A stretch of DNA of 64,000 bases, from positions 1 to 64,000 of the IMG/VR virus record IMGVR_UViG_3300020406_000408. One strand, given 5' to 3'. Source of the stretch: a virus. The notes under the pieces were generated by a model. The model was not told where the DNA came from. It saw only the letters and a program-made list of their open reading frames with translations, and ran no database searches. The position numbers and the translations under genes are program-made. Positions 415 to 32,741 of this stretch are shown one piece after another (within the stretch, counting starts at the first letter, position 1; every line of letters starts with the position of its first letter).

Positions 415-422
415 GATAAATA
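415..422 (+). promoter_or_regulatory. late-promoter-like box GATAAATA
   Basis: GATAAATA lies 27 bases before the ATG of the tail-fibre gene at 450, with an AGGAG ribosome-binding site at 439-443 between. T4 late promoters use TATAAATA and T4-like cyanophages an NATAAATA-type box, so sequence and spacing fit. The region is AT-rich and an eight-base match can occur by chance. Confidence 0.45.
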
Positions 423-1517: not shown

Positions 1518-2099
1518 ATGCAAATACTATATCTTATTCTATTCTCTTATCTAGCCTATATGCTAATTGTTACTATTGGCATTACATATGGTTATCATAG
1601 ATATTTTTCACACAAAGAATTTTCTGCGACACCTTGGCAAGAAATTGTAATGCTTTACTGTGGTTTGTTATGTGGAAATAGAAGTCCATTAGGATGGGTA
1701 GGTGTACATCGTATGCATCATGCATTCGCAGATACACCAAAAGATCCGCATAGTGCAAAATATCAACCTTGGTATAGAATATTGTTTAGTTTATGGAGAG
1801 TAGATAGTATTCCACGTAAATTTTTAAAGGATATGATTACAAATCCTAGAGTAGTATTTTTTCACAAACATAGAAACTTGATTTATGTTACGAATGCAAT
1901 ATTTCTAAGTTTGATTTTTGGATATAAGGCACTTATAGTATTGGCAATAATTTATGCCTTGGCCTACTTTGGCTTTGGCGCATTGAACTTTTGGGGGCAT
2001 GACAGCAAAGGTCCGATTAATAATATTTGGGTAAATTTAATCGCACCGTTCGAAGGAAACCATAAAGATCATCATGAAATGGCGTTTAGAAGAGATTGA
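1518..2099 (+). CDS. membrane fatty-acid desaturase
   Basis: A 193-residue integral membrane di-iron desaturase of the delta-9 acyl-CoA/acyl-lipid type, which would insert a cis double bond into host or viral-lifecycle lipids. All metal-ligand boxes are present: H27-RYFS-H32, H64-RM-HH68, NFWGH with H161, and H182-KD-HH186. Hydrophobic segments at about 1-24, 42-55 and 122-157 fit the family's membrane topology. It is shorter than typical 250-300-residue members, with a stop soon after the last box, but looks complete. It is the first gene of the accessory stretch and its 3' end overlaps the next gene by 26 bases. Lipid desaturases are known in marine cyanophages, so this is an auxiliary metabolic gene rather than a structural one. 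Confidence 0.9.
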   Translation: MQILYLILFSYLAYMLIVTIGITYGYHRYFSHKEFSATPWQEIVMLYCGLLCGNRSPLGWVGVHRMHHAFADTPKDPHSAKYQPWYRILFSLWRVDSIPRKFLKDMITNPRVVFFHKHRNLIYVTNAIFLSLIFGYKALIVLAIIYALAYFGFGALNFWGHDSKGPINNIWVNLIAPFEGNHKDHHEMAFRRD

Positions 2100-2529
2100 A
2101 CCTCACATAGAGGATATTAAAGAACTGTTTGAAAAAACACAAGGACACAAACATGCGGATAATTATAGCAAGTGGCCTTTGTTTGAACATACAAAATTCG
2201 CCCGTATGGGTTGGGATCCTCATTTAATTTATTATAGTGCTGGTATTTCAAGACCAGAATATAAGGGCGGCATTAGAATTATGAGCCGTCATACTCGTGA
2301 TCGAAATTACAATTGGGGTACAATGACAGAAGATTTACAAAGAGGTAATGCTACGTTAGGTTTTAGTACAAAAATGGCACTTGATATGGGCTATAAAGAT
2401 ATATGGGTAAGTAGAGAAGAAAATCCTAAACTACTAGAATGGTTTCAAGAACATAGTTTTTATAATTGGAAAATTACACAGGAGGAAATTCCTTTAGGAG
2501 GACTGCAATGGGTCTTACGATTGGCATAA
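2074..2529 (+). CDS. unknown protein, possibly GNAT-like
   Basis: A 151-residue soluble protein whose ATG lies inside the end of the desaturase gene. The C-terminal half (GFSTKMALDMGYKDIWVSRE, then a WF..H.F.NW stretch and PLGGLQWVLRL) has the alternating helix/strand feel of a small acyltransferase of the GNAT type, but no clear acetyl-CoA-binding Q/RxxGxG/A loop is seen. Function is therefore left open. It is translationally coupled to its neighbours and probably shares their transcript. Confidence 0.65.
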   Translation: MKWRLEEIEPHIEDIKELFEKTQGHKHADNYSKWPLFEHTKFARMGWDPHLIYYSAGISRPEYKGGIRIMSRHTRDRNYNWGTMTEDLQRGNATLGFSTKMALDMGYKDIWVSREENPKLLEWFQEHSFYNWKITQEEIPLGGLQWVLRLA

Positions 2530-2975
2530 CTGGTCATACAAGCGGCTTTGGCAAACATATTGCCAACGAGTGCAAAGAACTAGGACATGTTGTTAAAGGT
2601 TACAGTAGAGCCACAGGATATGACTTACATTTTGATGTAGAAAAAGTATTTGAAGATAAGATGGATTGTATGGTAAATTGTGCGGATATCGGCAACGCCC
2701 AAGTTAATATCAGTATAAGAGCATATCGTAACAAAATAAAATGTATTAATATTGGTAGTAAAATTACAGAAGCAAAGGTTACAGATCATTGGGATATTTT
2801 AAAAAAGGATAATAAAATTACACTAGAACATATGAGTAAAAAATTTAAGCAACCTTATCTTACATGGGGATTTACTAAAGGAAATCCTATATTAGATAGA
2901 AATCCACAACTATTAGAAACAATCAGTATTGATGATGCTGTAAAGGAAGTAATTAATGAGCTGGCACTTACATAA
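2508..2975 (+). CDS. short SDR-like NAD(P)-binding protein
   Basis: A 155-residue protein. I place the start at the ATG at 2508 because an AGGAGG-type site (2495-2501) sits 6 bases before it; the longer frame from 2466 has no such site. The N-terminus, GITGHTSGFGKHIA, is the glycine-rich TGxxxGxG nucleotide-binding loop of short-chain dehydrogenases. The protein is much shorter than a full SDR (about 250 residues), and a clear catalytic YxxxK is not evident. It may bind a dinucleotide without classical activity, or be a reduced enzyme. It overlaps both neighbours in the plus-strand accessory operon. Confidence 0.7.
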   Translation: MGLTIGITGHTSGFGKHIANECKELGHVVKGYSRATGYDLHFDVEKVFEDKMDCMVNCADIGNAQVNISIRAYRNKIKCINIGSKITEAKVTDHWDILKKDNKITLEHMSKKFKQPYLTWGFTKGNPILDRNPQLLETISIDDAVKEVINELALT

Positions 2976-3579
2976 TATAATTTCCCAATATGGAGATTTC
3001 CTACACTTGAAGCAACCGAAAATAAATTGCGGTCAAGTCTTAGAAGATCTTAAAAATTATGAATGGATAAAATATAATCCTGATAAACCAAATATTCCTA
3101 GAGACTGTATAAATGTTACTAGCTTAGATGGTAGTTTACAAGGTTTTACAGGCACACTAATGGTACAAGGAGTTAATACAGATAGCGATTTTAAGACTCC
3201 AACCGAGGTATATGAAAGCAGTAAAACAATACAAAAGTTATTAGAACCTTGGAAGCCTTACTTAGGAAGAACACAATTTTTAAGATTGCCGCCAGGAGGA
3301 TATTTTCCACCTCATCATGATGGTGGTAAAACAGGTTCTCCAGATACTTTTAGATTAATTGTACCAATTGAAAATGCTAACCCTCCTGGATTTTGCTGGA
3401 TGTATGGTGATGAAAATAATTACAAACCATTACAATGGGAAACAGGTAAATTATATTATCTTAACACAAATAAAAAACATTGGTTGTTTAATGCTAGTGC
3501 AAATGATAGTATATGGCTTACCTTGAACATATTAGCATGTGACGAAACTGTACATATAATTAGGAGATTCGTTCAATGA
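2956..3579 (+). CDS. 2OG-Fe(II) oxygenase, Asp/Asn beta-hydroxylase-like
   Basis: A 207-residue double-stranded beta-helix oxygenase that would use 2-oxoglutarate and O2 to hydroxylate an unknown substrate. The iron ligands are visible as H120-H-D122 in YFPPHHDGG and H175 in TNKKHWLFN. R133 in DTFRLIVPI is positioned like a family-conserved arginine. The start has a strong AAGGAAG site. It is a clear paralog of the gene at 14334-15092 on the other strand: both have DF(K/N)TPT upstream of GG(Y/W)FPPH.D and DTFR after it. Substrate cannot be told from sequence; a protein or peptide side chain is plausible for this subfamily. Confidence 0.85.
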   Translation: MSWHLHNIISQYGDFLHLKQPKINCGQVLEDLKNYEWIKYNPDKPNIPRDCINVTSLDGSLQGFTGTLMVQGVNTDSDFKTPTEVYESSKTIQKLLEPWKPYLGRTQFLRLPPGGYFPPHHDGGKTGSPDTFRLIVPIENANPPGFCWMYGDENNYKPLQWETGKLYYLNTNKKHWLFNASANDSIWLTLNILACDETVHIIRRFVQ

Positions 3580-4037
3580 TACCATATTTTGTTCCTGTGG
3601 ATTTTATAAGCAAAGAAGATGTAGAGTTTTTAGAAAATCTAGTACAATCAGATGAGGCAGATTTTAAAGCATATGATACTGTAAGTGGAAAAAAAGATGG
3701 TAATCTATGCTGGGATATTAACTTAGATTATTTTAATAGATTTAATTTAAACAGCTATACATTCTTTGTTCATCAAGAACCTTTTTCAAAGGTTATTTCT
3801 CATACAGATAATCCTAAATGGAAAAGAAATACTGTACTAATAATTCCACTGCTATGGCATAGAAATTATGCGCCATGCTATTTTGAGGATGGTCCTGTTA
3901 TAGAATTCAGAACTCCTTATCTTTTTAACACACAATTATCACACTATGTAAATAATAACGAATACCCAAGATATAATTTTCAAATATGTTTTGAGGAACC
4001 AATAGAGGAAGTTGCAAAATGTTTAATCCCCAAATGA
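3576..4037 (+). CDS. small 2OG-Fe(II) oxygenase-like protein
   Basis: A 153-residue protein with an AGGAG site before the ATG. The order of elements fits a minimal jelly-roll oxygenase: H76-T-D78 (VISHTDNP), a strand rich in I/L/P (VLIIPLLW), and H123 in NTQLSHYVNN followed by a final strand (NFQICFEE). It is shorter than its neighbours, with a reduced N-terminus, and the expected 2OG-binding Arg near the last strand may be R132. Assignment rests on motif spacing and on sitting between similar genes, so confidence is moderate. Confidence 0.65.
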   Translation: MIPYFVPVDFISKEDVEFLENLVQSDEADFKAYDTVSGKKDGNLCWDINLDYFNRFNLNSYTFFVHQEPFSKVISHTDNPKWKRNTVLIIPLLWHRNYAPCYFEDGPVIEFRTPYLFNTQLSHYVNNNEYPRYNFQICFEEPIEEVAKCLIPK

Positions 4038-4771
4038 CCGAAGGTTTTGTTCACTGTGATCCTATAAGTGATACAAAAGAACTTACTACTTTGTTTTATG
4101 ACATGACCGAAGAAATTTGGCCTGATCTAAGTTTCGGCGACCAAACTTATCTAAATGTTTATATGCAACGTCCAAAAGATCTAATGAGTAAGAGAGACAT
4201 ATATAATGGCTTACGTGGCTTTGATATGAAAGAAGAATCTAATTGGTTGAATTATGTTACAGAAACAAAATATAAAACTGGTGTTCTTTATTATGTAAAA
4301 CTACGTAAAGAGAATGCAAGAATAGAAGACCATCAATGGTTAAACATATACTGTTTTGTACACAATAATTTTAGAGACCTAGGAAAGAAATATTGGAAAG
4401 AACTTGAACAAGCTATACCAGATCTAAGAAGTAATTATTGGTTTAGTTACATGGAACATGACTGCGAATTTCAATGGCACACAGATGGTGATACAGGATT
4501 TAGATATCATCATGTTTTGAATAACGACGGTGAAGGTATTACTAGTAGTATTGAAACTAGTGATGGTAGTGTATTCCGTAAACCGGGTGAAGCATTTATT
4601 CTTAATACTGCCAAGCCTCATTGTGTGGTACCAGCTAAAAGTGTAAGACTACATGCTGTCGCAAGTGTTAATGGTCCAAAAAGCACAAGAAAAGATCATA
4701 ATAATCAATGGCTAGAAGATACAAATAAAACTTGGAAGGATTGGGAACGTGAACACGGTTATAGTTCTTGA
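4019..4771 (+). CDS. 2OG-Fe(II) oxygenase-like protein
   Basis: A 250-residue protein with about 140 residues of N-terminal domain before the oxygenase core. Candidate ligands are H154-T-D156 (FQWHTDGDTG) and H201 (FILNTAKPHCVV), with R210 in VRLHAVASV as a likely 2-oxoglutarate contact. The C-terminal 30 residues are charged and rich in W/N/K. A GAGGAAG site lies inside the preceding gene. The extra N-terminal region (WLNYV, KYKTGVLYYVKL) is unlike the other oxygenases here and may hold a substrate-recognition part. Confidence 0.75.
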   Translation: MFNPQMTEGFVHCDPISDTKELTTLFYDMTEEIWPDLSFGDQTYLNVYMQRPKDLMSKRDIYNGLRGFDMKEESNWLNYVTETKYKTGVLYYVKLRKENARIEDHQWLNIYCFVHNNFRDLGKKYWKELEQAIPDLRSNYWFSYMEHDCEFQWHTDGDTGFRYHHVLNNDGEGITSSIETSDGSVFRKPGEAFILNTAKPHCVVPAKSVRLHAVASVNGPKSTRKDHNNQWLEDTNKTWKDWEREHGYSS

Positions 4772-5270
4772 TAGTATATTTGACAAAGATTATCTACAGA
4801 AGCTAGACGAACTTTGCAAAGGCGAACTACTACAATTAGATAGTGAAACAGGATCTCACGTAGGCGAATATACAGACTACGAATGGCAAATGATTAAAAA
4901 TGATATTAGGACTAGTCCACACAGACTAAAACTGTTAAGTGAAATAAGTGAACATATTGGTAAAAGTTTACCTACAAAAGATTTAGAACCTATGCAACTG
5001 TTTGCTAAAAAGTTTACTCCTAGTAGTCGTATAGGTAAGCACAAAGAAGATCCAGAAGTATATGGCGACTGGGTATGGATGCTGTATCTTACAGACGAAA
5101 CTGATGGAGAACTATGTACAGAAGATATGCGTATATTACCAAAACGCAACAGACTTGTAATAATGCGTACAGGATTTGACCATTGGGTAGAACCGTGTAC
5201 AGGCGAAAGACTTAATCTTAGTGGTTGGCCGTTTGTAACTAAACAAGTGAGACAAAGATGGAAAAATTAG
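4749..5270 (+). CDS. prolyl-4-hydroxylase-like 2OG oxygenase with HxE
   Basis: A 173-residue protein starting with GTG within the end of the preceding gene. The core pattern is that of small prolyl-hydroxylase-type enzymes: GKHKED (H98, E100, D101), then WVWMLYLTD, an ILPKRNRLVIMRTG strand, H145 in FDHWVEP, and R154 in ERLNLSGWPF. The first carboxylate in the canonical HxD position is Glu (H98-K-E100), which other 2OG oxygenases also tolerate. Proteins of this group hydroxylate Pro or other side chains; the substrate here is unknown. Confidence 0.8.
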   Translation: MNTVIVLDSIFDKDYLQKLDELCKGELLQLDSETGSHVGEYTDYEWQMIKNDIRTSPHRLKLLSEISEHIGKSLPTKDLEPMQLFAKKFTPSSRIGKHKEDPEVYGDWVWMLYLTDETDGELCTEDMRILPKRNRLVIMRTGFDHWVEPCTGERLNLSGWPFVTKQVRQRWKN

Positions 5271-5878
5271 ATAGTTTTTTACAAAATACAAAGAACTTTA
5301 ATAAATGCCAACGTAACTGGAACTATGATAAGATTATAGATCAAACTATAATTGAAAAACTTTTAGATATTGGATACTCCACTCCAACAAAACAAAGTTT
5401 ACAAAATTTTACACTAATAGCAATTACCAATAGAGATATAATAAAACATTTAGAAAAAGCTAGTGTAAGTTATGACGATTGGGGAGAGAATCATAAAAAA
5501 AGAGTAGAAGCAGGCCAAGTTCAAAATCCGCAAGTAAATGCCAATGTATTATTTGTTTATATAGGCAATGAAAAAGTTCGTGAAAATAAAAATAGTGTTG
5601 GTATTGAAGTAGGCATATCTGCGGGAGCTTTAGGATTAGCCGCAAATGAAATTGGCCTTAGAACAGGCTTATGTAGATGCATAGATAAAGAACTAATTGA
5701 TCCTAATCTTTTTGATAGTTATAACTTACATGTAAATAATATTATATTATTTTTAGGAGTAGGATTTCCACTGCATACAAAAGACTTCATAAAATTACCA
5801 AAACATGTTGTACACAATAATATAGATTTTTATAGTAGATCATATCCTAAACAGCCACACACGAGAATAATTATATAA
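5258..5878 (+). CDS. nitroreductase-family flavoprotein
   Basis: A 206-residue protein of the FMN-dependent nitroreductase fold. The N-terminal RNWNYDKIID and YSTPTKQSLQNF match the FMN-phosphate-binding segment (usually R.S.R / P.S.N.Q), and the C-terminal half has the GISAGALGLAANEIGLRTG helix followed by LCRCIDK and NIILFLGVGFP, which are typical. Such enzymes use NAD(P)H to reduce nitro compounds, quinones or flavins, or catalyse dehydrogenations in peptide-modification pathways. A second family member, not closely similar, lies at 15095-15739 among radical-SAM genes. Confidence 0.85.
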   Translation: MEKLDSFLQNTKNFNKCQRNWNYDKIIDQTIIEKLLDIGYSTPTKQSLQNFTLIAITNRDIIKHLEKASVSYDDWGENHKKRVEAGQVQNPQVNANVLFVYIGNEKVRENKNSVGIEVGISAGALGLAANEIGLRTGLCRCIDKELIDPNLFDSYNLHVNNIILFLGVGFPLHTKDFIKLPKHVVHNNIDFYSRSYPKQPHTRIII

Positions 5879-6354
5879 TGGAAAGAAAAAGATTTTATAA
5901 CAACAGTCTAACTAGACAAGGAAATACAGTTATCAAAGAAAGTCAGTGGCCTGTAGATAAAGAGGCTCTTGATATATTAATAGCAGAACAACCTAACTTT
6001 CTTCCAAAAATATTAGAGTACAATAGCAATTCAATTATTTACGAATACATTGAAGGTATGTCTGTTGGAAAATATTTAAAAGACCTAAAAGCTAACGCAC
6101 AAGATATGGTTGAAATTTATTTGCAAATAAATGATATTTGGAAGAACTTTTTAGAACTTTCTAAAAAATATTGTAATGGTAAAATGATTTATCATAATGA
6201 TCTCCACTTATATAATATGATATATTCACAAGGCAAAGTTATTCTAACAGATATAGATAGTATAAAAATTTCCAACCATGTAAGTTTCCAAACCACACAC
6301 AGTTATCTATTTCACCAAATGGAAGAAATATTATATGCTAGAATTCAAAAATAA
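5878..6354 (+). CDS. compact kinase/phosphotransferase-like protein
   Basis: A 158-residue protein with the catalytic loop of the aminoglycoside-phosphotransferase/choline-kinase superfamily: H106-N-D108 with N113 (YHNDLHLYNMI) and the metal-binding D125-I-D127 (LTDIDS). Only a shortened N-lobe is present, with K20 as a possible ATP-contact lysine, and little follows the DxD motif, so it is about half the size of usual members. It may phosphorylate a small molecule or sugar, or be a degenerate kinase. A paralog with the same layout lies at 23612-24139. Confidence 0.75.
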   Translation: MERKRFYNNSLTRQGNTVIKESQWPVDKEALDILIAEQPNFLPKILEYNSNSIIYEYIEGMSVGKYLKDLKANAQDMVEIYLQINDIWKNFLELSKKYCNGKMIYHNDLHLYNMIYSQGKVILTDIDSIKISNHVSFQTTHSYLFHQMEEILYARIQK

Positions 6355-6880
6355 AATATTATTACACATTCCTAAATGTGCAGGAACAAGTATTTTGACA
6401 GCTCTTAAACTTGATGTGTGGAATGGTGATGATCATTATAATGAAAATTATGATGTACGTATACACTACAATGATATTCAACAAACACATATACCTGCAA
6501 AAGATATAAAAATAAACAAGCCAAAAGTTGCTTTTGTGCGTAATCCTTGGGACAGAACAGTTTCAAGGTATTGGTATTGTAGAAAAAGATACAAAATAAA
6601 AGAAACTTTTGAAGAGTTTGTACAACAAAAAATAATGAAAGTAGATTACGACTGGGGTCCTCCTAGCTGGAGATGTCAAAGTGATTGGTTAGATGAAAAT
6701 ACAGTTTTCTACAAAATAGAAGACGGTATAGAAAAAGTTTTACATAATGAATTTGGTGTTGAAATAAAATTACCAATAATCAACGGAATGAAAATTAATA
6801 ATTATAAAATTGAAGATAAAAATATATATGATTTAATTGCTGAGTATTATGACAAAGATATAAAACTATTTAATTATTAA
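6335..6880 (+). CDS. sulfotransferase family protein
   Basis: A 181-residue sulfotransferase that would move sulfate from PAPS to a hydroxyl or amine acceptor. The 5'-phosphosulfate loop is HIPKCAGTS (residues 11-19), and the 3'-phosphate-binding segment is VRNPWDRTVSRYWY (about 68-81, with R69 and S77), both canonical for carbohydrate/tyrosine-type family-2 enzymes. No membrane anchor or signal is present, unlike eukaryotic Golgi members. It is the last plus-strand gene before the strand switch and its 3' end overlaps the convergent gene by 11 bases. The acceptor is unknown; a glycan or modified fibre would fit the company it keeps. Confidence 0.9.
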   Translation: MLEFKNKILLHIPKCAGTSILTALKLDVWNGDDHYNENYDVRIHYNDIQQTHIPAKDIKINKPKVAFVRNPWDRTVSRYWYCRKRYKIKETFEEFVQQKIMKVDYDWGPPSWRCQSDWLDENTVFYKIEDGIEKVLHNEFGVEIKLPIINGMKINNYKIEDKNIYDLIAEYYDKDIKLFNY

Positions 6881-6882
6881 AT
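6868..6882. repeat. AT-only palindrome at the convergent gene ends
   Basis: Seven-base arms ATTTAAT and ATTAAAT are separated by a single T. The stop codons of the two convergent genes (TAA on plus at 6878-6880; TAA on minus at 6872-6870) both lie inside it. It has no G/C and no adjoining U-run on either strand that would make a convincing intrinsic terminator. Confidence 0.5.
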
Positions 6883-7451
6883 ACGTTGTGTAAAGTTTCC
6901 CAATCATATTCTGTATTACATACAAAACTTATTAAAGCTCTTTCTTTTTGTGGTGGCTGAACTTTGTGCCATACCGCAGTATTTAATAATACTGGAAGTT
7001 CTTTTACAGTGATCTTATCTAAAAATTTCCATTTTATATTTTTTGCTTTTTGGGGATTCGTATAAAAGATTCTTGGATCTTTAATCTCACAATCAGGCTC
7101 TTCCCATATAGTATCACAATCACCTGTTCCGTAAATTGGAAAATTTAAAACTGCTGTAATTTGTTTTCCTTTTGGTATAAGACTGTATTGTCCTTGAACA
7201 TTTACATCAAGGTGATGATGTACATGTTCTCCTGGTTTAATAATTAATATTCTAAAATGTCCACTCAAATATTTTTTATAATTGTTCAGAGGTTCTAATA
7301 TTTTTAAGTGTTCATCTATTTTTAAAATAGGTACAGGTTTAGATTCTGTGATTTCACAATCTTTTTTATAAGTGTCTACAATCTCCTTTGCGTAATCTTG
7401 CCAAGCAGTTGTAACACCTATATTACATTCTAAAAAATATTCATTAAACAT
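6870..7451 (-). CDS. 2OG-Fe(II) oxygenase, Asp/Asn hydroxylase-like
   Basis: A 193-residue jelly-roll oxygenase. Candidate iron ligands are H80-L-D82 (GEHVHHHLDVN) and H162 (NTAVWHKVQPP), with R171 in ERALISFV as the likely 2-oxoglutarate contact. The segment between carries a large loop (GDCDTIWEEPDCE). It is the last gene of the long minus-strand run and ends inside the end of the plus-strand sulfotransferase gene. No strong ribosome-binding site is seen, but it overlaps the upstream gene by 8 bases, so coupled translation is likely. Confidence 0.8.
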   Translation of the reverse strand: MFNEYFLECNIGVTTAWQDYAKEIVDTYKKDCEITESKPVPILKIDEHLKILEPLNNYKKYLSGHFRILIIKPGEHVHHHLDVNVQGQYSLIPKGKQITAVLNFPIYGTGDCDTIWEEPDCEIKDPRIFYTNPQKAKNIKWKFLDKITVKELPVLLNTAVWHKVQPPQKERALISFVCNTEYDWETLHNVFNN

Positions 7452-8055
7452 TTTCTAAATCATCTGTACCATTAAGACTAAACATAAGAGCAATTCTAGG
7501 TTTACTACTCATATTAATAACAGCATGTGGATATCCAATGTTAAGGAAATAAGCATTACCGTTGTCTAGGTTATATGCTTCTATTTTGCCTTCACGTTTA
7601 AATAAATTTATTACTTGTTTGTCTCCGTAAATAGGCACAATACATCTGACAGCATAACTTACATCATAGTCAACATGAAACGGAATATTTTTTCCTGGAG
7701 CAAGTTTAGTAATTCTAATTCTACTTGCTGGTGCTTTTAATTGTGTAATTATTTTTTCAAAATAACTGCCTGTGTAATCTTCTGTGGGCACATTATATAA
7801 ATGTTCTTCTTTTCGTCTTAACCTTTCCTTGATACTTGTAGTATAAGGTAATATTTCGCTAGGTGTAGTTAAATTAATTTGTTCAAAGTTATCATAAACA
7901 TGAGCGACTAACTCCATATGATTATCACACAACATTGGGTTTGCTGTTTTTACATCAACAAACTTTTCTGCTAGTTTATCACAAGCATCTTGTAATTGTT
8001 TTAAGTCAATATCTAAATTGTAGTTATGTATACTAGGTAAGTGTTTCTTATTCAT
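7444..8055 (-). CDS. 2OG-Fe(II) oxygenase, Asp/Asn hydroxylase-like
   Basis: A 203-residue protein with a clear AAGGAC-type site before its ATG. The core is textbook for this family: H127-V-D129 in NIPFHVDYD, YAVRCIVPI after it, then NAYFLNIGYPHAVIN with H177, and R187 in KPRIALMFSL. The N-terminal 110 residues are mainly helical and would cap the barrel. The protein is predicted to be soluble and to hydroxylate an unknown, probably peptide-like or amino-acid-like, substrate. Confidence 0.85.
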   Translation of the reverse strand: MNKKHLPSIHNYNLDIDLKQLQDACDKLAEKFVDVKTANPMLCDNHMELVAHVYDNFEQINLTTPSEILPYTTSIKERLRRKEEHLYNVPTEDYTGSYFEKIITQLKAPASRIRITKLAPGKNIPFHVDYDVSYAVRCIVPIYGDKQVINLFKREGKIEAYNLDNGNAYFLNIGYPHAVINMSSKPRIALMFSLNGTDDLENV

Positions 8056-8680
8056 TAATTAGTCCTTTCAATTTACAATACCTTACATAATTTTCCCATG
8101 TATTGTAAGGCCAAAGCAAAAAACTTGCTATCTTCCTTGGTTGATTATGGCTTGATTCAATCCTGTGCCAATTGCCAATGTTAAGTAATACAGCATCTTT
8201 TTTTGTTTCAAATTTATCTATAATTTCGAATTCTTCTGTATCATTGCGTGGCAAGTTTCTTTTGTCCCAGCTTTTATACTTATTAAGTTTTTTGTCAAAT
8301 CCAAAAAATGTTACATCTCCTACAGGTTCACTGAGTAAAATATTTACAGCCGCAGGACAAGTCATATGTTGCGGAATCTCATTATGGATACTATGCTTAT
8401 TATTATCAATATGATATCCATATAATTCACCAGGCATCATCTGCATAATCTTAAAATGATCTAAAAATGCATCTTCAAAAAGACTAAACATATTTAAAAG
8501 TCCGTCAAGTTTTAAGTCTTTAACTACTTTTTTTGAAACATAATAAACATTTTCGTCAAATACTTTGCAGTCCATTTTGTCTTTGTATTCTTGGGACAAA
8601 TCATTCCATACGTCATCAATATAATTAAGATCCGTTCTTAAAGTGTCCGAATCAATTTTTAAATTATATGCACTTCTCAT
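8048..8680 (-). CDS. 2OG-Fe(II) oxygenase, tandem paralog A
   Basis: A 210-residue oxygenase with H90-I-D92 (YGYHIDNN), H172 (IGNWHRIES) and R182 (QPRKIASFLLW). It is a tandem paralog of the next gene upstream (8677-9342): both share the VNILLS(E/K)PVGD strand after the HxD site, a (L/I)(L/F)WPYN(T/S)W segment after the Arg, and a C-terminal KG(L/I)I stretch. Start codons and stops overlap by four bases, as expected for a duplicated pair retained in one operon. Divergence is high, so the two probably act on different substrates or positions. Confidence 0.85.
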   Translation of the reverse strand: MRSAYNLKIDSDTLRTDLNYIDDVWNDLSQEYKDKMDCKVFDENVYYVSKKVVKDLKLDGLLNMFSLFEDAFLDHFKIMQMMPGELYGYHIDNNKHSIHNEIPQHMTCPAAVNILLSEPVGDVTFFGFDKKLNKYKSWDKRNLPRNDTEEFEIIDKFETKKDAVLLNIGNWHRIESSHNQPRKIASFLLWPYNTWENYVRYCKLKGLINE

Positions 8681-15092: not shown

Positions 15093-15094
15093 TT

Positions 15095-16844: not shown

Positions 16845-16849
16845 TCTTT

Positions 16850-16878
16850 AGTATAGCACCTTTGGTTAATTTTGTCAA
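16850..16878 (-). promoter_or_regulatory. strong sigma70-type promoter
   Basis: On the minus strand a perfect -35 TTGACA (16878-16873) and a -10 TATACT (16855-16850) are 17 bases apart, in one of the few gaps of the minus-strand run. It points at the radical-SAM gene at 15729-16844 and everything downstream to 6870. Host RNA polymerase could read this early in infection, so this part of the island may be expressed apart from the late structural genes. Confidence 0.75.
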
Positions 16879-16883
16879 TCATT

Positions 16884-21447: not shown

Positions 21448-21501
21448 ATATGTACTTATCTAAGTTATAGTGGTGTTTAATTCCTACAGATGCTTGCCAG
21501 C

Positions 21502-22548: not shown

Positions 22549-23612
22549 TTAAATTGCTCCGCAAATGGATCAAACTCTGCTCCACACTTCATAGCACAAA
22601 CTTTTAATTTTCCTTCTCCGCAAGTTGGCTTTGACCAACTATCTTGTATTGTGTTAAATATGCCTGTATCAAAAACTTTATCTAATCCGGAACGTGCATC
22701 TAATGCATTTTTGTCAGGAATGAAGTCCCATATTTGTTCCACTTTAGGATCTTTATGCCACCACTTATACATGCGTCCTGCGGTCCAACAGCATGGCAAG
22801 GCTAAACCTTCTGCTGTAACATATAAACTATTTTCTTTTTTAACTTTACAAATAATAGGAGCCGCGTCATAATATGCGTCCATACTACCATATTTTTTGA
22901 TAATAATGTCTTGTTTTTGTAATGCTTTATTTTGATATTTTTTATCAGGTTTTCTTAATTGTGTTGTTTCTTTACCTTTTCTATCAACTGCTTGATGTGA
23001 TTCTTTCTTCTTACTATCTTGTGTGATAAAACGTCCAGTCTTTTTAGCAGTAAATTTTTCAAAGCCTTTTTGTTCACTTAATTCTCTTGCTTCTTCTACT
23101 TGATGTTGGTTATGTTCAAAAATTAAAAAGTCCCAACGGGCTCTTCCGCCCGCTTCGATAAAAGCATTCATACTACGCTCTACATTATTCCAATTAACGC
23201 CTTGGCGATATAAATGGTTAGTGTCCCGAAGACCGTCAACGCTAAAAATAACAGACCCCATCCTACCAAAAGTTGTTGCCAAGTCGCTCCACCATACTTC
23301 ATCTCTTGCTCCTGCATTTGTATTCATACTTAGCCAGATGTTTTTATTGTGTGCTCTAAAATATTTGAATATTTCTAACGTGTCTTTGGCAACAATGGGA
23401 TCGCCCAAGTTACCACACATATACATTGTGTCAAGTTGGTTTATAAATTTAGGAGAAAATATCTTCTTACAATCTTCTAATGACAATTCATCTAAATTTA
23501 TATGCGGGTTTACACCTTTACCGTTACAATTCCTATCACACATAGGACAAGCCGCCTGGCAATTCTGTGTTACCTCTAGATGTATAGTTTTTATATCTTC
23601 GTAAAAATACAC
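22545..23612 (-). CDS. radical SAM protein, HNEH subfamily
   Basis: A 355-residue protein. I choose the GTG at 23612 as start because it overlaps the upstream stop as TAGTG and aligns with the short N-termini of its paralogs; the longer frame to 23702 would lie inside the kinase-like gene. Core cysteines are C18, C22 and C25 (QNCQAACPMC). The GGEP site reads CGNLGDPIV, and WDFLIFEHNQHQVEEAR is the subfamily mark. It has a long basic insert (about residues 200-250) rich in K/Q and a Cys-containing C-terminus (LPCCWTAGR, CGEGKLKVCAMKC). Confidence 0.85.
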   Translation of the reverse strand: MYFYEDIKTIHLEVTQNCQAACPMCDRNCNGKGVNPHINLDELSLEDCKKIFSPKFINQLDTMYMCGNLGDPIVAKDTLEIFKYFRAHNKNIWLSMNTNAGARDEVWWSDLATTFGRMGSVIFSVDGLRDTNHLYRQGVNWNNVERSMNAFIEAGGRARWDFLIFEHNQHQVEEARELSEQKGFEKFTAKKTGRFITQDSKKKESHQAVDRKGKETTQLRKPDKKYQNKALQKQDIIIKKYGSMDAYYDAAPIICKVKKENSLYVTAEGLALPCCWTAGRMYKWWHKDPKVEQIWDFIPDKNALDARSGLDKVFDTGIFNTIQDSWSKPTCGEGKLKVCAMKCGAEFDPFAEQFK

Positions 23613-24139
23613 TATGTTAGCACCCTTTGCATTGATAAAACTATTTTTAATTGTGATGTATAAAATGCCTCTACTCCATGATAGCCATTGGCTATATACC
23701 ATGAGTCAGCATCTAAAAATTTAAAATTTAATCCGTTTTTGTTTTTTATTACTGCTATATTTTTTAAATGTGCATCTTGATGTACAAAGAATCTGTTATC
23801 TACCAATTCATTACTTAATTCCATTGCTGATATCCATGTATTATTAATACATTTGAACAATCTAATATAATCTGTTTTATTTAAGGTTTTAACCATATGT
23901 GGTTCTAATAATTTGTATAAATCTATGACAATGTTATCTACATACTCCATTGTATACGTATTCTCGTCTATCTTATCTATTATCTTTACAACGTGTGGAG
24001 TTTTATCTTGCAGTCTTTTATAGGCATCAAACCAAGCATCACTTATTCCCTTTCTTTTTAGAGTTTTGATTAGAATGTTATTTTTAGTATCATGTACTAT
24101 TCTAGATACCTCTGTGTCCCATATAATATTTTTTTTCAT
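23612..24139 (-). CDS. compact kinase/phosphotransferase-like protein
   Basis: A 175-residue paralog of the plus-strand gene at 5878. The catalytic loop is H120-Q-D122 with N127 (VHQDAHLKNIAV), the metal site D143-A-D145 (FLDADSW), and an N-lobe strand pair (RIVHDTKNNILIKTLKR) offers a candidate ATP-binding lysine. As in the paralog, the protein is far shorter than ordinary aminoglycoside-phosphotransferase-like kinases, with little beyond the DxD motif. It joins the methyltransferase gene by a one-base overlap. Confidence 0.75.
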   Translation of the reverse strand: MKKNIIWDTEVSRIVHDTKNNILIKTLKRKGISDAWFDAYKRLQDKTPHVVKIIDKIDENTYTMEYVDNIVIDLYKLLEPHMVKTLNKTDYIRLFKCINNTWISAMELSNELVDNRFFVHQDAHLKNIAVIKNKNGLNFKFLDADSWYIANGYHGVEAFYTSQLKIVLSMQRVLT

Positions 24140-24837
24140 TATTTTATACCAATTCTCATAAATCTATTGTACTTTGGCAACTCCAGTGCTCCTGAATATA
24201 AGCAATCCTGCATTGGAGATTGTTCTGCAAATTCTAAAGGATTTTTAACACAATTTACGTGATCCTTGACATCGAAAAAATTGTTAGTTTGTAAAACAAC
24301 CAATGTACCATTTGGTATTTTTTTATACCACTGATTAAATTCTTTGATGTGTTCACAACTTGTGTTTATAACAGTATTAGGGCAATCTGTTATATCTCTA
24401 CTCATTCTGTTGTTAGCTTTGCTCCAAGTTTGCCAAGTATGACTATTATAATCAATGTCCATGATGTCCTGTGTTATTGCTTTGAATTTCCAATCTTTTT
24501 TGACTTCATTTCGGTTTATTGTATCTGCTATTTCTAAACAACTATCGTCTATATCAAAACTTCTAATTTTGTCTATTGAGCAACGACTTTGAAACAACAT
24601 GGCCGCAAGTGTAGCATACCAACCAGCACACAAAAATACAGTTCCTAATGGCACCTCAATATCTTCCAAAGTGTTGACTAACCATCTTTTGCTTTTAAGT
24701 TGTCCCCAACTTAAAGCATCTGTCAAATCAGCATTATTGTTATCTACAGCATTACGTAAATTATTGAATATAGGATTGTTAGTAAGGACTAACATTCTTC
24801 CAAAAATATCGTTATCGTCTTTCCAATTAATGCTCAT
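24139..24837 (-). CDS. class I SAM-dependent methyltransferase-like protein
   Basis: A 232-residue protein with AAGGA before its ATG. Motif I reads VFLCAGWYATLAA (about residues 67-79), followed by the acidic ribose-contact strand RSFDIDDSCLEIAD (D95/D97) and the later DCPNTVINTSCEHI and TLVVLQTNNFFD strands. This gives the seven-strand order of class I enzymes. Glycine in motif I is partly replaced (CAGWY), a variation seen in marine phage methyltransferases as far as I recall. Substrate unknown. It overlaps a glycosyltransferase-like gene by 11 bases. Confidence 0.75.
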   Translation of the reverse strand: MSINWKDDNDIFGRMLVLTNNPIFNNLRNAVDNNNADLTDALSWGQLKSKRWLVNTLEDIEVPLGTVFLCAGWYATLAAMLFQSRCSIDKIRSFDIDDSCLEIADTINRNEVKKDWKFKAITQDIMDIDYNSHTWQTWSKANNRMSRDITDCPNTVINTSCEHIKEFNQWYKKIPNGTLVVLQTNNFFDVKDHVNCVKNPLEFAEQSPMQDCLYSGALELPKYNRFMRIGIK

Positions 24838-25510
24838 TAAACTTTTTCCTTAACCATTCAAAATCATTTATTAACCCAAGATCAGCCCCGCTAGAAAGGC
24901 CAAACTCCATACCAGCGGTAGCACCTGCCAAAGCAAATTTGCCATACTGTCTATCGTGTCCCACGGTTGTCCAAGTTTTAAGTCTTCCATTTGTTTCATT
25001 CTCCTTTTGTCTATCTATTGTTTTACTTGATAGTTTAGCACATTCTCTAAAAGCACTTTTCCAAGTGTTAAAAGGATCTGTGTTGAATGCTGTTATATTA
25101 CTTACTTCGTTCATGACTTTAAATTTATCACTTATACTAGTAGTCATGTCGTTAGTATTTGTATTCATATTTTTTGTTAATGTAGTCGGAAACAACTTTA
25201 CACCTCCATAACCATAAACAAGATCGTTAATTGGGTTCATACACCTGTATACATGAACTAAATCCTTTTCTTCTGTGGTGTATCCAAAATTAAATTCATC
25301 TACAATAACAGCATCTCCATCAACTACATAAAAGTAACTTGAGTTTGCGAGTTTGGCCGCTTCTACATGTGCGTTGTGAATGCCTTTAACATCATTTACA
25401 CGTTTTACTCTATCGCCAAATACTCCAACAGTATTGAATCTAGAATAAAGATCATTATAATTTTCTTCTGCATTTGGTTCGTGATAGCTAATAAAAACAA
25501 TATCATACAT
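24827..25510 (-). CDS. glycosyltransferase-like protein with DGD motif
   Basis: A 227-residue protein. The start is the ATG at 25510, which has a GGAG site; the longer frame from 25537 has none. It begins MYDIVFISYHEPNAEENY and has D64-G-D66 (YVVDGDAVIV), placed like the DxD metal/UDP-sugar motif of GT-A glycosyltransferases, followed by YGYGGVKLFP. The gene at 26870 is a longer paralog with the same opening and the same YG.GG.K..P segment. They flank a radical-SAM gene, so the two may be partly redundant or act in series. Confidence 0.75.
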   Translation of the reverse strand: MYDIVFISYHEPNAEENYNDLYSRFNTVGVFGDRVKRVNDVKGIHNAHVEAAKLANSSYFYVVDGDAVIVDEFNFGYTTEEKDLVHVYRCMNPINDLVYGYGGVKLFPTTLTKNMNTNTNDMTTSISDKFKVMNEVSNITAFNTDPFNTWKSAFRECAKLSSKTIDRQKENETNGRLKTWTTVGHDRQYGKFALAGATAGMEFGLSSGADLGLINDFEWLRKKFNEH

Positions 25511-26870
25511 TTTTACAAATCTCCAAAAATTGTTCATACTCAGGAAAAATCTTTACAAAATTTATATTTCTTCTTTTGTCATATTGTTTTGTAAACATAA
25601 AAAACATTTTTTGAGCTTCTTGCTGTTCTTTCCAGAAGTTATCTTTGTTTTTAAGTCTATGCTCTACATCTGATACAATACGTTCTAGCTTTACAGTTTC
25701 AATCTGTTTGAAGCCATGATGATCTGTGTTTTCTTGCATAAATTTTAGAGCAGGTTTTAAGTAATCATCTACTACTTGCTCATTTGCTATTTTAACATCT
25801 AAGAACGCAGGATTTCGTACATACGGAATGTCAATAAGTATCCTTTGATTTCCTTGATGCTTACCCCAATATGTTGACTTCAAATATAGTACCCAGATCA
25901 AAAACGATTTAAATGTTGGCAAACTATAAATGTTAAAAGCACTCATGAAACTGATTTTGCTAGTGGTATTCCTAGCAAAGTATTCAATATTATCAGTAAA
26001 TAAACGCCAGTCCATACCAAATCTACTGTACTCTGCTTGTGGGCCTGTGCTTTCTGCACTGGTGTATAGACAAAATTCTCTAATAGCATTAGAGTCTTCT
26101 AACTTTTTTATAGACTTTGTAAACTGTTTCCATAAATCTTTAGGTGGACATCCGTTACTATTAATTGCAAATTTTAGATCAGGTTGCGGATGTTCAATAA
26201 GATAGTCGATTACCCGTTGCGTATGTTTGCTTAATAATGGTTCTCCTCCTGTAATACGGAAAGTGTGCATGTGTTTTACAGCTTCGGGAAACCATTTCCA
26301 AAACGCTTCAATATAAGGATTTTCTTCACGCTCAGGTATAGGAGTTTCATTTGGATCAATCATGTTATATGACCAAGTGTTTAAGTCATATGGTCCTTTT
26401 TGCTTGACTTCTTCCATCCACTTACTACTAAAAGGAGGTCCACAGTATGCACATTTAAAATTACAAACATTTGAAAAACTTATTTCTACATATCTTGGAT
26501 AAAAGTCTTCATTACCTGTAAATTTACTAATTGTATCATAATCACTCCAACTAAAAGCATCCGCACTTTTATAAACTCTATCACTAAATTTATCAGTGTT
26601 ATCTTCAATACGCCAACAGTAATCACACTCGGCTGGACGTTCATTATTAAGCATTTGCTTTCTTACGTTTTTTTTAAATCCTGTGTTATGTAAAGCATTG
26701 GGATTATTTTTTAATTCTTGGAGATCAATTCTATGTGCCTTGACATGATGACAACTGTGATTTATACCAGTACCTAAATGAATTGTCACCTGTGTCCATT
26801 TTGCGAGACAAAATCCGCATCCGACATTATCTAACTTTTGCTTGACTTCATTCGGTTCACCTTTAAGCAT
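25503..26870 (-). CDS. radical SAM protein, twitch-type layout
   Basis: A 455-residue protein with AGGA before its ATG. The leading Cys region (C18, C21, C40, C82, C85; GCGFC, NHSCHH, CDYC) precedes the core, whose cluster motif is C136-x3-C140-x2-C143 in SNVCNFKCAYCGPP, with FRITGGEPLLSKHT after. About 200 C-terminal residues form a helical, charge-rich part ending in FPEYEQFLEICKNV, similar in feel to the end of the 20047 protein. It starts at the stop of the paralogous glycosyltransferase-like gene and ends inside the other. Confidence 0.85.
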   Translation of the reverse strand: MLKGEPNEVKQKLDNVGCGFCLAKWTQVTIHLGTGINHSCHHVKAHRIDLQELKNNPNALHNTGFKKNVRKQMLNNERPAECDYCWRIEDNTDKFSDRVYKSADAFSWSDYDTISKFTGNEDFYPRYVEISFSNVCNFKCAYCGPPFSSKWMEEVKQKGPYDLNTWSYNMIDPNETPIPEREENPYIEAFWKWFPEAVKHMHTFRITGGEPLLSKHTQRVIDYLIEHPQPDLKFAINSNGCPPKDLWKQFTKSIKKLEDSNAIREFCLYTSAESTGPQAEYSRFGMDWRLFTDNIEYFARNTTSKISFMSAFNIYSLPTFKSFLIWVLYLKSTYWGKHQGNQRILIDIPYVRNPAFLDVKIANEQVVDDYLKPALKFMQENTDHHGFKQIETVKLERIVSDVEHRLKNKDNFWKEQQEAQKMFFMFTKQYDKRRNINFVKIFPEYEQFLEICKNV

Positions 26871-27790
26871 TATTTTTCCTGATCAATGAACTGTTGATTT
26901 CCGCCTCTGCTTGGATTTTGATAAACATTTTTAAAGAATGAACTTTGTTCTTCGTTCAATGGTTGTATTGCTATTGGAATCTCTAGATTATTTACTAGGT
27001 CACTTCCATGATTAAAGATTTCTGTATGTAAAACATCGTCAGGCATTTGATCACGGCCTGCCCAGAGATCATTTAGATATTCAAAGTCTCGTACATTTAC
27101 ATAATCCCAATCAGATAGCATAGTCATACAAAGTCCTTCTCTAGCTCCCAATATTGCCCAGTTTCCGTTTGGGACATCTGCTCCTACCATTAACCAAATC
27201 CAAAGTCTATGTAGATTTTTCCAGTGTCCTTTTAAAAACTCTTCTTTGGTTGGCTTGACTCCTCTATCAAGTGCCATTTTTACACCTTCACGAAATCCTG
27301 CTCGCCAAGCCTGATGTGGTGTTTCGTTATTGTGTACATCTGAATAACAACTATTTTGTTGAATATACTGTAGGTCCCAACAAAAGTCAACCTGTGCCTG
27401 TTTATTATCAGGATCAGCATTTTCATGTGTTTTCATATCTAAAACATACTGCTTTGGCCAACATTTTAATCCGCCATTTCCATACAGTAATCCATTAATA
27501 GTATTTTTACCACACCAACTAATTACACTATGCTCTAAGTCTGTGTGTTCATCAAAATCTAACACTTGATTAATAAAGTCTTGACGTATAGTATTGTCGC
27601 CGTCTACTGTAATAAAACGATCTGTTTCGCTCAATTTAGCACACGCTTTATGTGCGGCATCTGAACCTTCTACACCGTGTACACGTTTTGCCCAAGGAAC
27701 TTTTGTTAATAGGTCTGCATAATTTTTATCAGCATTTGGTTCGTCATAACTTAAATAAATTATATCTACTTCTGCAATTTTTACTTTCAT
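26870..27790 (-). CDS. glycosyltransferase-like protein with DGD motif
   Basis: A 306-residue paralog of the 24827 gene: IIYLSYDEPNADKNYADL at the start, D63-G-D65 in TVDGDNTI, and LLYGNGGLKCWP correspond one to one. A strong AGGAG site precedes the ATG. It is longer by a Trp-rich segment (KNLHRLWIWLMVGAD) and a C-terminal tail. The DxD and order of elements suggest a GT-A fold sugar transfer to an unknown acceptor, but no specific CAZy family can be named from sequence alone. Confidence 0.78.
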   Translation of the reverse strand: MKVKIAEVDIIYLSYDEPNADKNYADLLTKVPWAKRVHGVEGSDAAHKACAKLSETDRFITVDGDNTIRQDFINQVLDFDEHTDLEHSVISWCGKNTINGLLYGNGGLKCWPKQYVLDMKTHENADPDNKQAQVDFCWDLQYIQQNSCYSDVHNNETPHQAWRAGFREGVKMALDRGVKPTKEEFLKGHWKNLHRLWIWLMVGADVPNGNWAILGAREGLCMTMLSDWDYVNVRDFEYLNDLWAGRDQMPDDVLHTEIFNHGSDLVNNLEIPIAIQPLNEEQSSFFKNVYQNPSRGGNQQFIDQEK

Positions 27791-28329
27791 TATAACTCCT
27801 TATACATACAAGTTGCCATATCACTACTTGCAAAGATACTATATTCATCTTTTATATTAATTATCTGTTCTTTAGGGTCAGCAATATTAAATGTAGCCAT
27901 ATCATACAATATATGCGGATCACCTTTCTTTGTAAAACTAAAAGTAATCTCTTTTTGAAGATCTACGTTTGTTGTTTTCATTGTATCTAATAATTCAATA
28001 CCGGATCTAATATAACATCTTTTAGACTTTTTGTCGACCGTTAAAAGTAAATCATACATAGCAGATTCATCTACAGGCATAATTTCTGTAAATTGTTCTG
28101 TGTGTTCGATATAAATGTTCTTTTTAAGAACAAATGCTTTATTAGTCCTGTTATACGCTACAACATAGTCAGTCATGTTTGCTTTAAAAGTTTTTATAGG
28201 TTCAATCTCTTCTTCGGTAACCTCAAAATACTGATATCCTTCTTCTATACTAGGTCCAATACTAAAGATCTCACCAGTCTTTTGATTAAAACAAACATAC
28301 TGCGGAGTATCTATTTTGACATGTTGCAT
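27790..28329 (-). CDS. unknown protein of the tail/island junction
   Basis: A 179-residue protein; the start is the ATG at 28329 with GGAGGT 7 bases upstream, preferred over 28344. It begins MQHVKIDTPQYVCFNQKTGE and is acidic, mostly strand-forming, with no cysteine pairs, membrane segment or catalytic motif. Similar small proteins accompany fibre genes in marine T4-like phages as far as I recall, so a structural or assembly role is possible. I do not assign a function. Confidence 0.65.
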   Translation of the reverse strand: MQHVKIDTPQYVCFNQKTGEIFSIGPSIEEGYQYFEVTEEEIEPIKTFKANMTDYVVAYNRTNKAFVLKKNIYIEHTEQFTEIMPVDESAMYDLLLTVDKKSKRCYIRSGIELLDTMKTTNVDLQKEITFSFTKKGDPHILYDMATFNIADPKEQIINIKDEYSIFASSDMATCMYKEL

Positions 28330-29108
28330 AACACCTCCTCGCAAAAACTATTTTCTGTGTAGTGAAAAATTCCATGCTGTTTATAATTGCCAACTTTTAA
28401 TTCGTCGCTAATATAATATGGCACAGTATCGGTCCATGTATCGGTTGGATTATCCCATCCTTGAACTTTGCTTTTCATATGTGTAAAAGATGCAAAATTA
28501 ATATTGTAGTCTTGTATATTGCAATCAAGCAATGAGACAGCATGATTTACATCCATACTACTTAAAGTAGGCTTTTGCTTAGGAACATATACTTCGTAAT
28601 ATTTTTCAAAGTTCTCACATACTCGATTCAATACTTTATAATAATTTAGTGCTCTGTCATCTTTTTTAAAATAATGAAAGGCACAATATATATTAGGTAG
28701 ATTATTAACTGTAAATGCTTTTCTGTAGAAATCATTTGTGATAGTATTACCTCGGTAATCTTTTACTTTGCTTACAAATCCTATACTTTTTTCTGCAAAG
28801 TATTTCCACCAATGCGAAATATCTGATAAAAACATCATATCAGTGTCTAGTACAACTGTTTCATCATATGGAGTTAAATGAAATACTTTCCATCTGTGTT
28901 CTGTTTTATAAAAACTTTGTGAGTGTTTGTCATGCCACGGTACTTCTATAATTTTATCAAACACACTTTTATATTCTTCCGGAACTGGGTCACTTGTTAC
29001 TATAGACACATTTTTAATTGATTGTGTTTTCTTTATACTGAACGCACACAAATATGCTTGACGCACATAGTCATCACCCATAGCTACCATAATATATCCC
29101 TTATCCAT
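28311..29108 (-). CDS. glycosyltransferase family 8-like protein
   Basis: A 265-residue protein with MDKGYIMVAMGDDYVRQAYL at its N-terminus and a clear D88-T-D90 (VVLDTDMMFLSD), the metal-binding DxD of GT-A enzymes, most like family 8 (glycogenin/LgtC). HRWKVFHLTPYDETVV just upstream is the usual lead-in. The C-terminal half contains NIYCAFHYFKK and HGIFHYTEN, where histidines may help bind the nucleotide. A GGAG site 10 bases upstream of the ATG lies in the neighbour. It is a paralog of the gene at 29101. Confidence 0.8.
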   Translation of the reverse strand: MDKGYIMVAMGDDYVRQAYLCAFSIKKTQSIKNVSIVTSDPVPEEYKSVFDKIIEVPWHDKHSQSFYKTEHRWKVFHLTPYDETVVLDTDMMFLSDISHWWKYFAEKSIGFVSKVKDYRGNTITNDFYRKAFTVNNLPNIYCAFHYFKKDDRALNYYKVLNRVCENFEKYYEVYVPKQKPTLSSMDVNHAVSLLDCNIQDYNINFASFTHMKSKVQGWDNPTDTWTDTVPYYISDELKVGNYKQHGIFHYTENSFCEEVLCNMSK

Positions 29109-29925
29109 TTATAAGTTCTCCCAAACTAAACTTATTCATGACATGTACATTACAGTCTTTTGTTGATGCTAAAATATATTCTCCTACATATTTTTCTTTC
29201 TGTATTAAGAACGTAATAAAATCATCTTCAATAGCTTTAACAATATCCCTATCTAATGTATAAAACATCTTACCCGGTAAAGTCTTTGCCCAATTTCCGT
29301 CTTTGAATCCGTTCATTATATGTATAGCAATACTAAACACATGATCGTTTCTAAAGTTTCTGCTTCCTAGATTATATACTTGTTTGTAATGTTTCCAATT
29401 ATTTACTAAATGTTTCAACAGGTCAAAGAATATTTTTGTTTCTTGTGTTTTTGTAAAACAAAAGCAAGTTGCCCAATAAAAAGGAATACCAGTATTATTA
29501 ATATAATCAAATTCTTTATGCTTACGCCAACTACACAAATCAATACCTTTTTTATATATTTGAAAACTGTGTAAGTTATTAAATGCTTTTTTAAATACAT
29601 CATTACAAATTATGTAATCTGTATCAAGGACAAGTGTAGTATCATAAGGAGATAATTCATAACTTTTTACTCTGTCGTTATTTTTAAATATTAATTTTTG
29701 GTGATGTAGAGAGCCGTTATAATAACGCTTTACGTTACTATTATCATCTGCTATTTCAATTACTTGATCAAATACTTTATTGCTGTTAAGACTTTGTGGC
29801 GTAGACGTGACTAAGGTAGTTGGAAGATTTAAATGTTGCTTTACACGCTTTGCAAGGAATTCTGCTTGCCTTAAATAATCTACTTTTCCGTTATTGTGTG
29901 CAAAACATAACACACCATTAGACAT
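29101..29925 (-). CDS. glycosyltransferase family 8-like protein
   Basis: A 274-residue protein with CFAHNNGKVDYLRQAEFLAK near the start and D101-T-D103 in TLVLDTDYIICND. The layout parallels the 28311 protein (SPYDTTLVLDTD against TPYDETVVLDTD), making them paralogs. The ATG overlaps the end of the 29918 gene by eight bases, tying this end of the island to the structural module. It probably adds a sugar to a fibre or other acceptor, but the acceptor is unknown. Confidence 0.78.
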   Translation of the reverse strand: MSNGVLCFAHNNGKVDYLRQAEFLAKRVKQHLNLPTTLVTSTPQSLNSNKVFDQVIEIADDNSNVKRYYNGSLHHQKLIFKNNDRVKSYELSPYDTTLVLDTDYIICNDVFKKAFNNLHSFQIYKKGIDLCSWRKHKEFDYINNTGIPFYWATCFCFTKTQETKIFFDLLKHLVNNWKHYKQVYNLGSRNFRNDHVFSIAIHIMNGFKDGNWAKTLPGKMFYTLDRDIVKAIEDDFITFLIQKEKYVGEYILASTKDCNVHVMNKFSLGELING

Positions 29926-31213: not shown

Positions 31214-31229
31214 TTTACTTCCTTATATT

Positions 31230-32717: not shown

Positions 32718-32741
32718 CTATAACCCCTAATATGTTATATG

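Follow-up and report, generated by a model that had tools for sequence, protein, structure and literature searches.

A radical-SAM-rich enzyme island between fibre genes of a large T4-type phage is exchanged en bloc and may remodel host envelope glycans

A 64,000-nt stretch of viral DNA (the window), belonging to the 68,463-bp IMG/VR virus record IMGVR_UViG_3300020406_000408, carries an island of 38 genes (g2 to g39) between the fibre-like gene FIB0 and the fibre gene FIB40, nine of which encode radical S-adenosylmethionine (rSAM) proteins and up to twelve of which encode candidate 2-oxoglutarate/Fe(II) (2OG) oxygenases. To our knowledge, radical-SAM genes in phages have usually been reported as scattered oddities. 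Here they belong to an island that has fixed flanks, is exchanged en bloc, is under purifying selection, confines the rSAM genes of its phages and contains a trio of rSAM genes in conserved order. We tentatively interpret it as the site at which a lineage of large T4-type phages keeps hypervariable cargo. As to function we lean, at a little under even confidence, towards late remodelling of host envelope glycans, in preference to decoration of the fibres, cargo without a pathway, or synthesis of a small molecule or peptide; this ranking rests on the glycan loci in which related bacterial genes are found, the gene context in Vibrio phage K566, a published proposal for pelagimyophage glycosyltransferases of family GT8, and the lack of correlation between enzyme repertoire and fibre identity. 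If the enzymes do remodel host glycans, they would give lytic phages a new way to control adsorption and superinfection, and would open up unstudied chemistry of sugars or peptides.

The island is nearly gap-free, with intergenic gaps summing to 128 bp and the largest measuring 54 bp, and consists of two convergent gene blocks that meet at 6870-6880. The open reading frames (ORFs) and coordinates of an original prediction, made from the sequence of the window, agreed with our re-inspection; the true unit reaches slightly beyond the limits then proposed (1518-29925), adding FIB0 (450..1484, plus strand; tail fibre PHROG, 8e-8) and g39 (29918..30262, minus strand; no function assigned). Comparison by gene order with 23 related or look-alike records (24 in all) placed the island of related records always at the same site, i.e., between FIB0 on the left and g39-FIB40 on the right, followed by g44, the gene of a giant structural protein and gp6. 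A right-hand core is largely retained (g32, g33, g34, g35, g36, g37/g38 and g39, the last in 22/24 compared records) and the remaining content turns over.

Across 18 related records, 174 rSAM-motif proteins are encoded inside the 18 islands, at 4-15 per island, and none in the 1.1 Mb outside them, which excludes chance clustering and extends to the relatives the concentration of enzymes that had been predicted from the window. The rSAM genes are thus a constant, spatially confined and swappable part of this environmental phage lineage. A Pfam search of 150 island families that the window lacks returned 24 further rSAM families, DegT aminotransferases, TauD and GNAT proteins; AMP-binding and carbamoyltransferase genes also occur at the island site in several relatives. 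Among viral-contig stretches, at least 594 have the hallmark gene g44 and 220 have g24.

Within this turnover three rSAM genes on the minus strand, g24 (15729..16844), g28 (20047..21447) and g30 (22545..23702), behave as a unit. They are jointly present in 13 relatives and jointly absent in 5 (Fisher p = 1e-4), and their order and strand are kept in 14/14 trio-bearing records, window included, with 0-14 variable genes between members. Among 39 further contigs picked solely by g24, g28 was found in 39/39 (60-88% identity) and g30 in 38/39 (63-82%), the lone contig without g30 starting at g28 on a contig edge; near-duplicate contigs among them lower the number of independent cases, perhaps to ~30. 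Linkage was tested on whole records, 10-kb flanks being uninformative with g30 ~9 kb from g24. Trio identity stays at ~80% even where that of the giant protein is down to 40-45%, and a g24 scan of 399 Pseudomonadota genomes, run without a positive control, gave no match. The trio is kept across very divergent phages; we found no earlier report of such a trio, which offers a sharp entry point to the system.

Two comparisons illustrate how the remainder is exchanged. Between the window and G013, most of the flanking sequence shares 87-99% identity (88% for the giant protein and 60% for one gene), and despite this near-identity g2-g31 are missing or replaced in G013; the fibres share 87-96% identity and the glycosyltransferases (GTs) 56-73%. 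Between the window and G001, most of the island shows 81-99% identity (77% for g31), and the baseplate and giant proteins 63-72%. Measured against G001, synonymous divergence (dS) stays within 0.15-0.8 over the genes FIB0 to g35, and the genes flanking this stretch have values of ~1-2.4 or are saturated; at the left edge dS steps from 2.1 in the gene upstream to 0.66 in FIB0. Since dS drops between breakpoints near 450 and 27,800, a block of ~27 kb (roughly 450-27,800), FIB0 included, was transferred as a unit in the exchange with G001. The ratio dN/dS of the exchanged island genes is 0.03-0.35, which shows purifying selection and genes kept functional. The joint inheritance of the trio, and that of the block, support linked inheritance; the case that would have refuted the original prediction, with genes distributed independently of one another in relatives, was checked and did not hold.

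A similar gene set also reaches beyond the lineage. The window and G007/G008 have in common g3, g8, g13, g14/15, g16, g17, g18, g19, the sulfotransferase, g24, g27 and g28, and G008 is a distinct myovirus with its own terminase, portal, capsid, tube and sheath, in which the island is placed between the tail-tube and tail-sheath genes. The nine records defining the module around the B12-dependent rSAM gene were retrieved via that very gene, and co-occurrence within them is therefore partly ascertainment. At a contig edge of G008 (L210-L213) a GroEL-like protein is encoded.

The arrangement of promoter-like motifs suggests when the island is expressed. ATAAATA, the motif that we searched, corresponds to the T4 late promoter core, which is cited as TATAAAT in PMC3037559. 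It is scarce (406 sites in the 24 records, against a median of 1,403 for permuted 7-mers), and it tends to precede genes: 63% of the sites fall 5-60 nt ahead of a gene start, where the median permuted 7-mer has 6%. It stands ahead of gp6 in 18/18 records, of g44 in 18/20 and of FIB0 in 18/19. In the window, GATAAATA (415..422, plus strand) lies 35 nt upstream of FIB0, and TATAAATA (32742..32749, minus strand) lies 32 nt upstream of FIB41; no other late motif is closer on the upstream side of the island's minus-strand genes. This last octamer, TATAAATA, is present once in the window against ~14 expected by shuffling, and is thus strongly avoided away from promoter positions. ATAAATA was not found inside the window's island; the islands of other records have some sites at internal strand switches. 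With motifs at the fibre genes of both ends and none inside, each half of the island seems to continue a late fibre operon, and the operon coupling and position between fibre genes noted in the original prediction gain support from motif placement and gene order alike. We infer that transcription from late fibre promoters continues into both halves, in which case the island enzymes would be made along with the virion.

Clues to the substrate come mainly from the twitch-type rSAM proteins, represented in the window by g26 (17825..18892), g28 and g34 (25503..26870), all on the minus strand. Searched at E<=1e-25, this family was found in 1/385 genomes sampled from one alphaproteobacterial class and in 2/399 Pseudomonadota genomes, a rare occurrence (3 in about 780 sampled), and all three bacterial full-length loci sit in surface-glycan clusters. 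In L241 the twitch rSAM accompanies GT8, GT2 and TPR-type GTs, a B12-rSAM, a methyltransferase and an epimerase; in L250, twitch rSAMs in tandem adjoin a Wzm/Wzt-like exporter, RmlC/RmlD and a TylF-like methyltransferase; and L251 has a UXS-like epimerase and a GT2. One profile over all twitch rSAMs proved too divergent for a contig scan, and a search for N_Twi in 195 genomes of the phylum of G035, without a positive control, gave no match. The closest cultured-phage match is the jumbo Vibrio phage K566 (23% to g28 by tblastn), in which five twitch rSAMs are interleaved with two GT8s, along with GT-B-like proteins, over 149937-180746, and are adjoined by LpxC (7.6e-28) and PagP. Gain of the K566 island has been described by its authors as a founding event of a subclade using LamB instead of OmpK, in a text that names a glycosyltransferase and lipid A genes and no radical SAM (PMC12028318). 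For the GT8s of pelagimyophages, modification of the host O-chain has been proposed (PMC7029224). Being cultured, K566 is a tractable relative.

Under the glycan reading, the island would be transcribed late from both ends, and its soluble GT8 and GT-A transferases, together with the rSAM and 2OG enzymes, would have cytosolic glycan precursors or lipid-linked sugars as substrates. They would build or tailor a host envelope glycan of the lipopolysaccharide/O-chain type; with its receptor altered or masked in this way, the dying cell would no longer be bound by sister phages or progeny. Each island variant would give its own glycotype, and this would explain why islands are swapped. A more specific form, which we consider rather doubtful, is a viral assembly line for glycans that relies on radical chemistry, in which the trio and a rotating set of 2OG and rSAM tailoring enzymes, coupled to virion production and exchanged as a cassette, would place unusual C-H modifications on host envelope sugars to yield a phage-specific glycotype.

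Several observations weigh against envelope glycans as the target. The bacterial loci number only three, with neighbours named mostly by eye, and the late motif is a sequence match. Nucleotide-sugar biosynthesis genes are absent from the window's island, which would therefore have to rely on host sugars. The islands of some relatives hold uptake transporters (TctA, DctP, ABC permease) and IMPDH, and the cargo is thus not purely tailoring enzymes. Lastly, the solved structures nearest to the twitch rSAMs include the peptide maturases SkfB, CteB and SuiB.

The original prediction had proposed either a surface polymer or the fibres themselves as the substrate; the former gains support by analogy from the three bacterial loci and from the rSAM and GT8 genes beside LpxC/PagP in K566, but the latter gains none. 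We regard it as improbable that late-made enzymes hydroxylate, crosslink, glycosylate or sulfate the flanking fibres and so alter receptor binding or stability. The idea has some appeal, as the island adjoins fibre genes with late-type motifs, FIB0 travelled with it in the exchange with G001, the island of the unrelated phage G008 lies among tail genes, and AspH/P4H-type folds and SPASM/twitch rSAMs often have protein substrates. Yet enzyme repertoire was uncorrelated with the identity of FIB0, FIB40 or FIB41 once baseplate divergence was controlled (partial rho -0.14 to 0.10, permutation p >=0.28), which lends no weight to fibres as a specific substrate and led us to drop fibre-enzyme coevolution. 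In G013 recombination has parted the GT core from the fibres, the bacterial twitch rSAMs are located in glycan clusters, and the fibres lack collagen-like Gly-X-Y repeats, for which reason a collagen-type hydroxylation was also dropped.

About as improbable, in our view, is a cargo hot spot without a common pathway, where a late locus prone to recombination would accumulate unrelated auxiliary genes, each affecting host metabolism on its own. The highly variable content and the TctA, DctP, ABC permease, IMPDH and AMP-binding genes of other islands would fit, but rSAM genes that are strictly confined and always present, a trio inherited together in fixed order, and a gene set common to two distinct myovirus lineages do not. 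Least probable is a pathway to a specialised metabolite, a peptide resembling ribosomally synthesised and post-translationally modified peptides (RiPPs) or a modified nucleotide acting on the host or on rival phages: the mix of B12-rSAM, 2OG, nitroreductase, pyridoxal phosphate (PLP) and kinase proteins resembles natural-product tailoring, the twitch rSAMs match RiPP maturases, and g24 and g27 have weak viperin-profile matches (~1e-10, far under the cut-off), but the bacterial contexts are glycan clusters, the window's island has no exporter genes, and its largest gap leaves no separate precursor ORF in the island, a candidate dropped there and possible elsewhere in the genome.

Parts of this picture are already known. 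Pelagimyophages and cyanomyophages, which are T4-type marine phages, have a host recognition cluster (HRC; PMC7029224) that is likewise a large, nonsyntenic island among structural genes; it combines tail fibres and GT8-type glycosyltransferases with radical-SAM cassettes, is hypervariable between close relatives and lies between VrlC and the neck gene gp14. On the right, the window's island is flanked by the 4,986-aa structural protein. Unlike the HRC, window-type islands are dominated by rSAM and 2OG enzymes, their rSAM confinement is absolute, and they have the order-conserved trio as a backbone and late-type motifs on the flanking fibres. In the Campylobacter phages CP220/CPt10 (PMC2853527), five rSAM genes and a modifying enzyme are swapped en masse with function conserved, the CPt10 module lying just after the baseplate-lysozyme and PAAR genes; there, an amidinotransferase takes the place of the window's 2OG-rich content, and g34, g18, g24 and g28 had no match in these phages at 1e-5. 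An amidinotransferase-like gene, identified by eye, is present in the island of G011. The K566/K567 island (PMC12028318) is similar in its interleaving of twitch rSAMs with GT8s and GT-B-like proteins and in whole-island replacement, but differs in its link to LpxC and PagP and in rSAMs that are just distantly related to those of the window. The bacterial O-antigen/exopolysaccharide clusters L241/L250/L251 share the full-length twitch rSAM with methyltransferase and glycosyltransferases, but are chromosomal and have sugar-nucleotide or export genes missing from the window's island. Searched against 50,697 phage records at 1e-5, g24, g34, g35 and g38 gave no match. Hypervariable fibre- and GT-bearing islands with rSAM cassettes (PMC7029224) and swapped rSAM modules (PMC2853527) are known, and the absolute rSAM confinement, the trio, the late-motif arrangement, the quantified block exchange, the second myovirus lineage and the phage-borne Fe-S assembly described below are new.

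Two island-bearing phages appear to assist their own Fe-S cluster supply. The 289-kb phage G011 encodes SufB (4e-204 to E. coli SufB; L184:15917-17353 = G011:C1:175917-177353), followed by a NifU-like domain recognised by eye, near the tail-sheath gene. L225:12447-13701 encodes SufC and a SufB/D-like protein. This contig (PBYS01000106.1), binned in a Puniceicoccaceae metagenome-assembled genome, carries an island of like kind, and is probably a misbinned phage contig since a gp46-type phage gene is on it; as it was the sole full-length genome-contig match to module A, a bacterial origin of that module was rejected.

The calls for individual enzymes vary in strength. All nine predicted rSAM proteins were recovered by PF04055: g18 (10577..12097; KedN5-like B12-dependent type, also by profiles), g24, the SPASM protein g25 (16884..17825), g26, g27 (18885..20057), g28, g29 (21502..22548), g30 and g34, all on the minus strand. 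Against the curated cut-off of 170 bits for NF033640 (N_Twi_rSAM), g26, g28 and g34 score 194, 420 and 300 bits, and g24, g25, g27, g29 and g30 miss it at 29-51 bits. Twelve oxygenases had been proposed, of which eight are well supported by profile, cluster or fold. On the plus strand these are the Asp/Asn-hydroxylase-type g5 (2956..3579; Pfam 4e-4, just under cut-off, and profile comparison) and g8 (4749..5270; 2OG-FeII_Oxy_3, 1.2e-5, just under cut-off), and on the minus strand g12 (6870..7451; g14/15 family, profile match 97%), the Asp/Asn-hydroxylase-type g13 (7444..8055; PF05118 over cut-off), g14 (8048..8680; paralogue of g15), g15 (8677..9342), the TauD-family g20 (12815..13639; 8e-27) and g22 (14334..15092; clusters with g5, profile comparison). 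Fold prediction was needed for proteins such as g14/15 and g33/35, as PDB profile searches for g14/15, g17, g21 and g33/35 gave no match; the AlphaFold model of g15 is a 2OG-Fe(II) double-stranded beta helix (predicted local distance difference test, pLDDT, 86), with SnoN, prolyl-4-hydroxylase, GriE and AspH as its best PDB matches by Foldseek. Of the others, g6 (3576..4037, plus; profile match to g5/g22, 65-80%) is a probable 2OG oxygenase, and g7 (4019..4771, plus; same match, 21-45%), g17 (9915..10580, minus; invariant HxD...H...R) and g21 (13636..14379, minus; invariant HxD...H) are plausible ones.

The four predicted DxD glycosyltransferases held up: g37 (28311..29108) and g38 (29101..29925) match glycogenin (GT8) at ~1e-6, and the paralogues g33 (24827..25537) and g35 (26870..27790; last gene of the exchanged block) have an invariant DxD and a predicted GT-A-like fold, all on the minus strand. 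The plus-strand membrane desaturase-like g2 (1518..2099; PF00487) and sulfotransferase g11 (6335..6880; PF03567) also exceeded Pfam cut-offs, as did the RIO/Bud32-like kinase g10 (5878..6354, plus), but not the second proposed kinase, g31 (23612..24139, minus), a motif-only call. Matches were weak for the nitroreductase-like g9 (5258..5878, plus; 3.6e-4) and g23 (15095..15835, minus; 8.4e-4), the short-chain dehydrogenase/reductase-like g4 (2508..2975, plus; PF01370, 0.018) and the PLP fold-type-I enzyme-like g19 (12076..12837, minus; 0.024). Both proposed methyltransferases, g16 (9317..9931, minus) and g32 (24139..24837, minus), carry the motif and found no match in family searches. No family match was obtained for g3 (2074..2529, plus), GNAT-like by eye and present in 9/9 module-A records, and g36 (27790..28344, minus) is a conserved protein with no function assigned. 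Homologues of g30 align from residue 28-31, the called ORF having ~28 surplus N-terminal residues, and its start is thus probably ~28 codons inside the called ORF.

To the right of the island lie T4-type contractile phage genes, namely a baseplate wedge (3.5e-289), a hub/lysozyme, fibres and a structural protein of 4,986 aa, whose similarity to cultured phages is patchy; the source of the island is a large, uncultured tailed phage of T4-type lineage. FIB40 (30299-31213) to FIB43 and their neighbour g44 occupy 30299..37281 on the minus strand. The giant structural protein (phrog_10938; 37303-52263, minus), which adjoins the fibres and the baseplate wedge, is conserved in 17/24 compared records.

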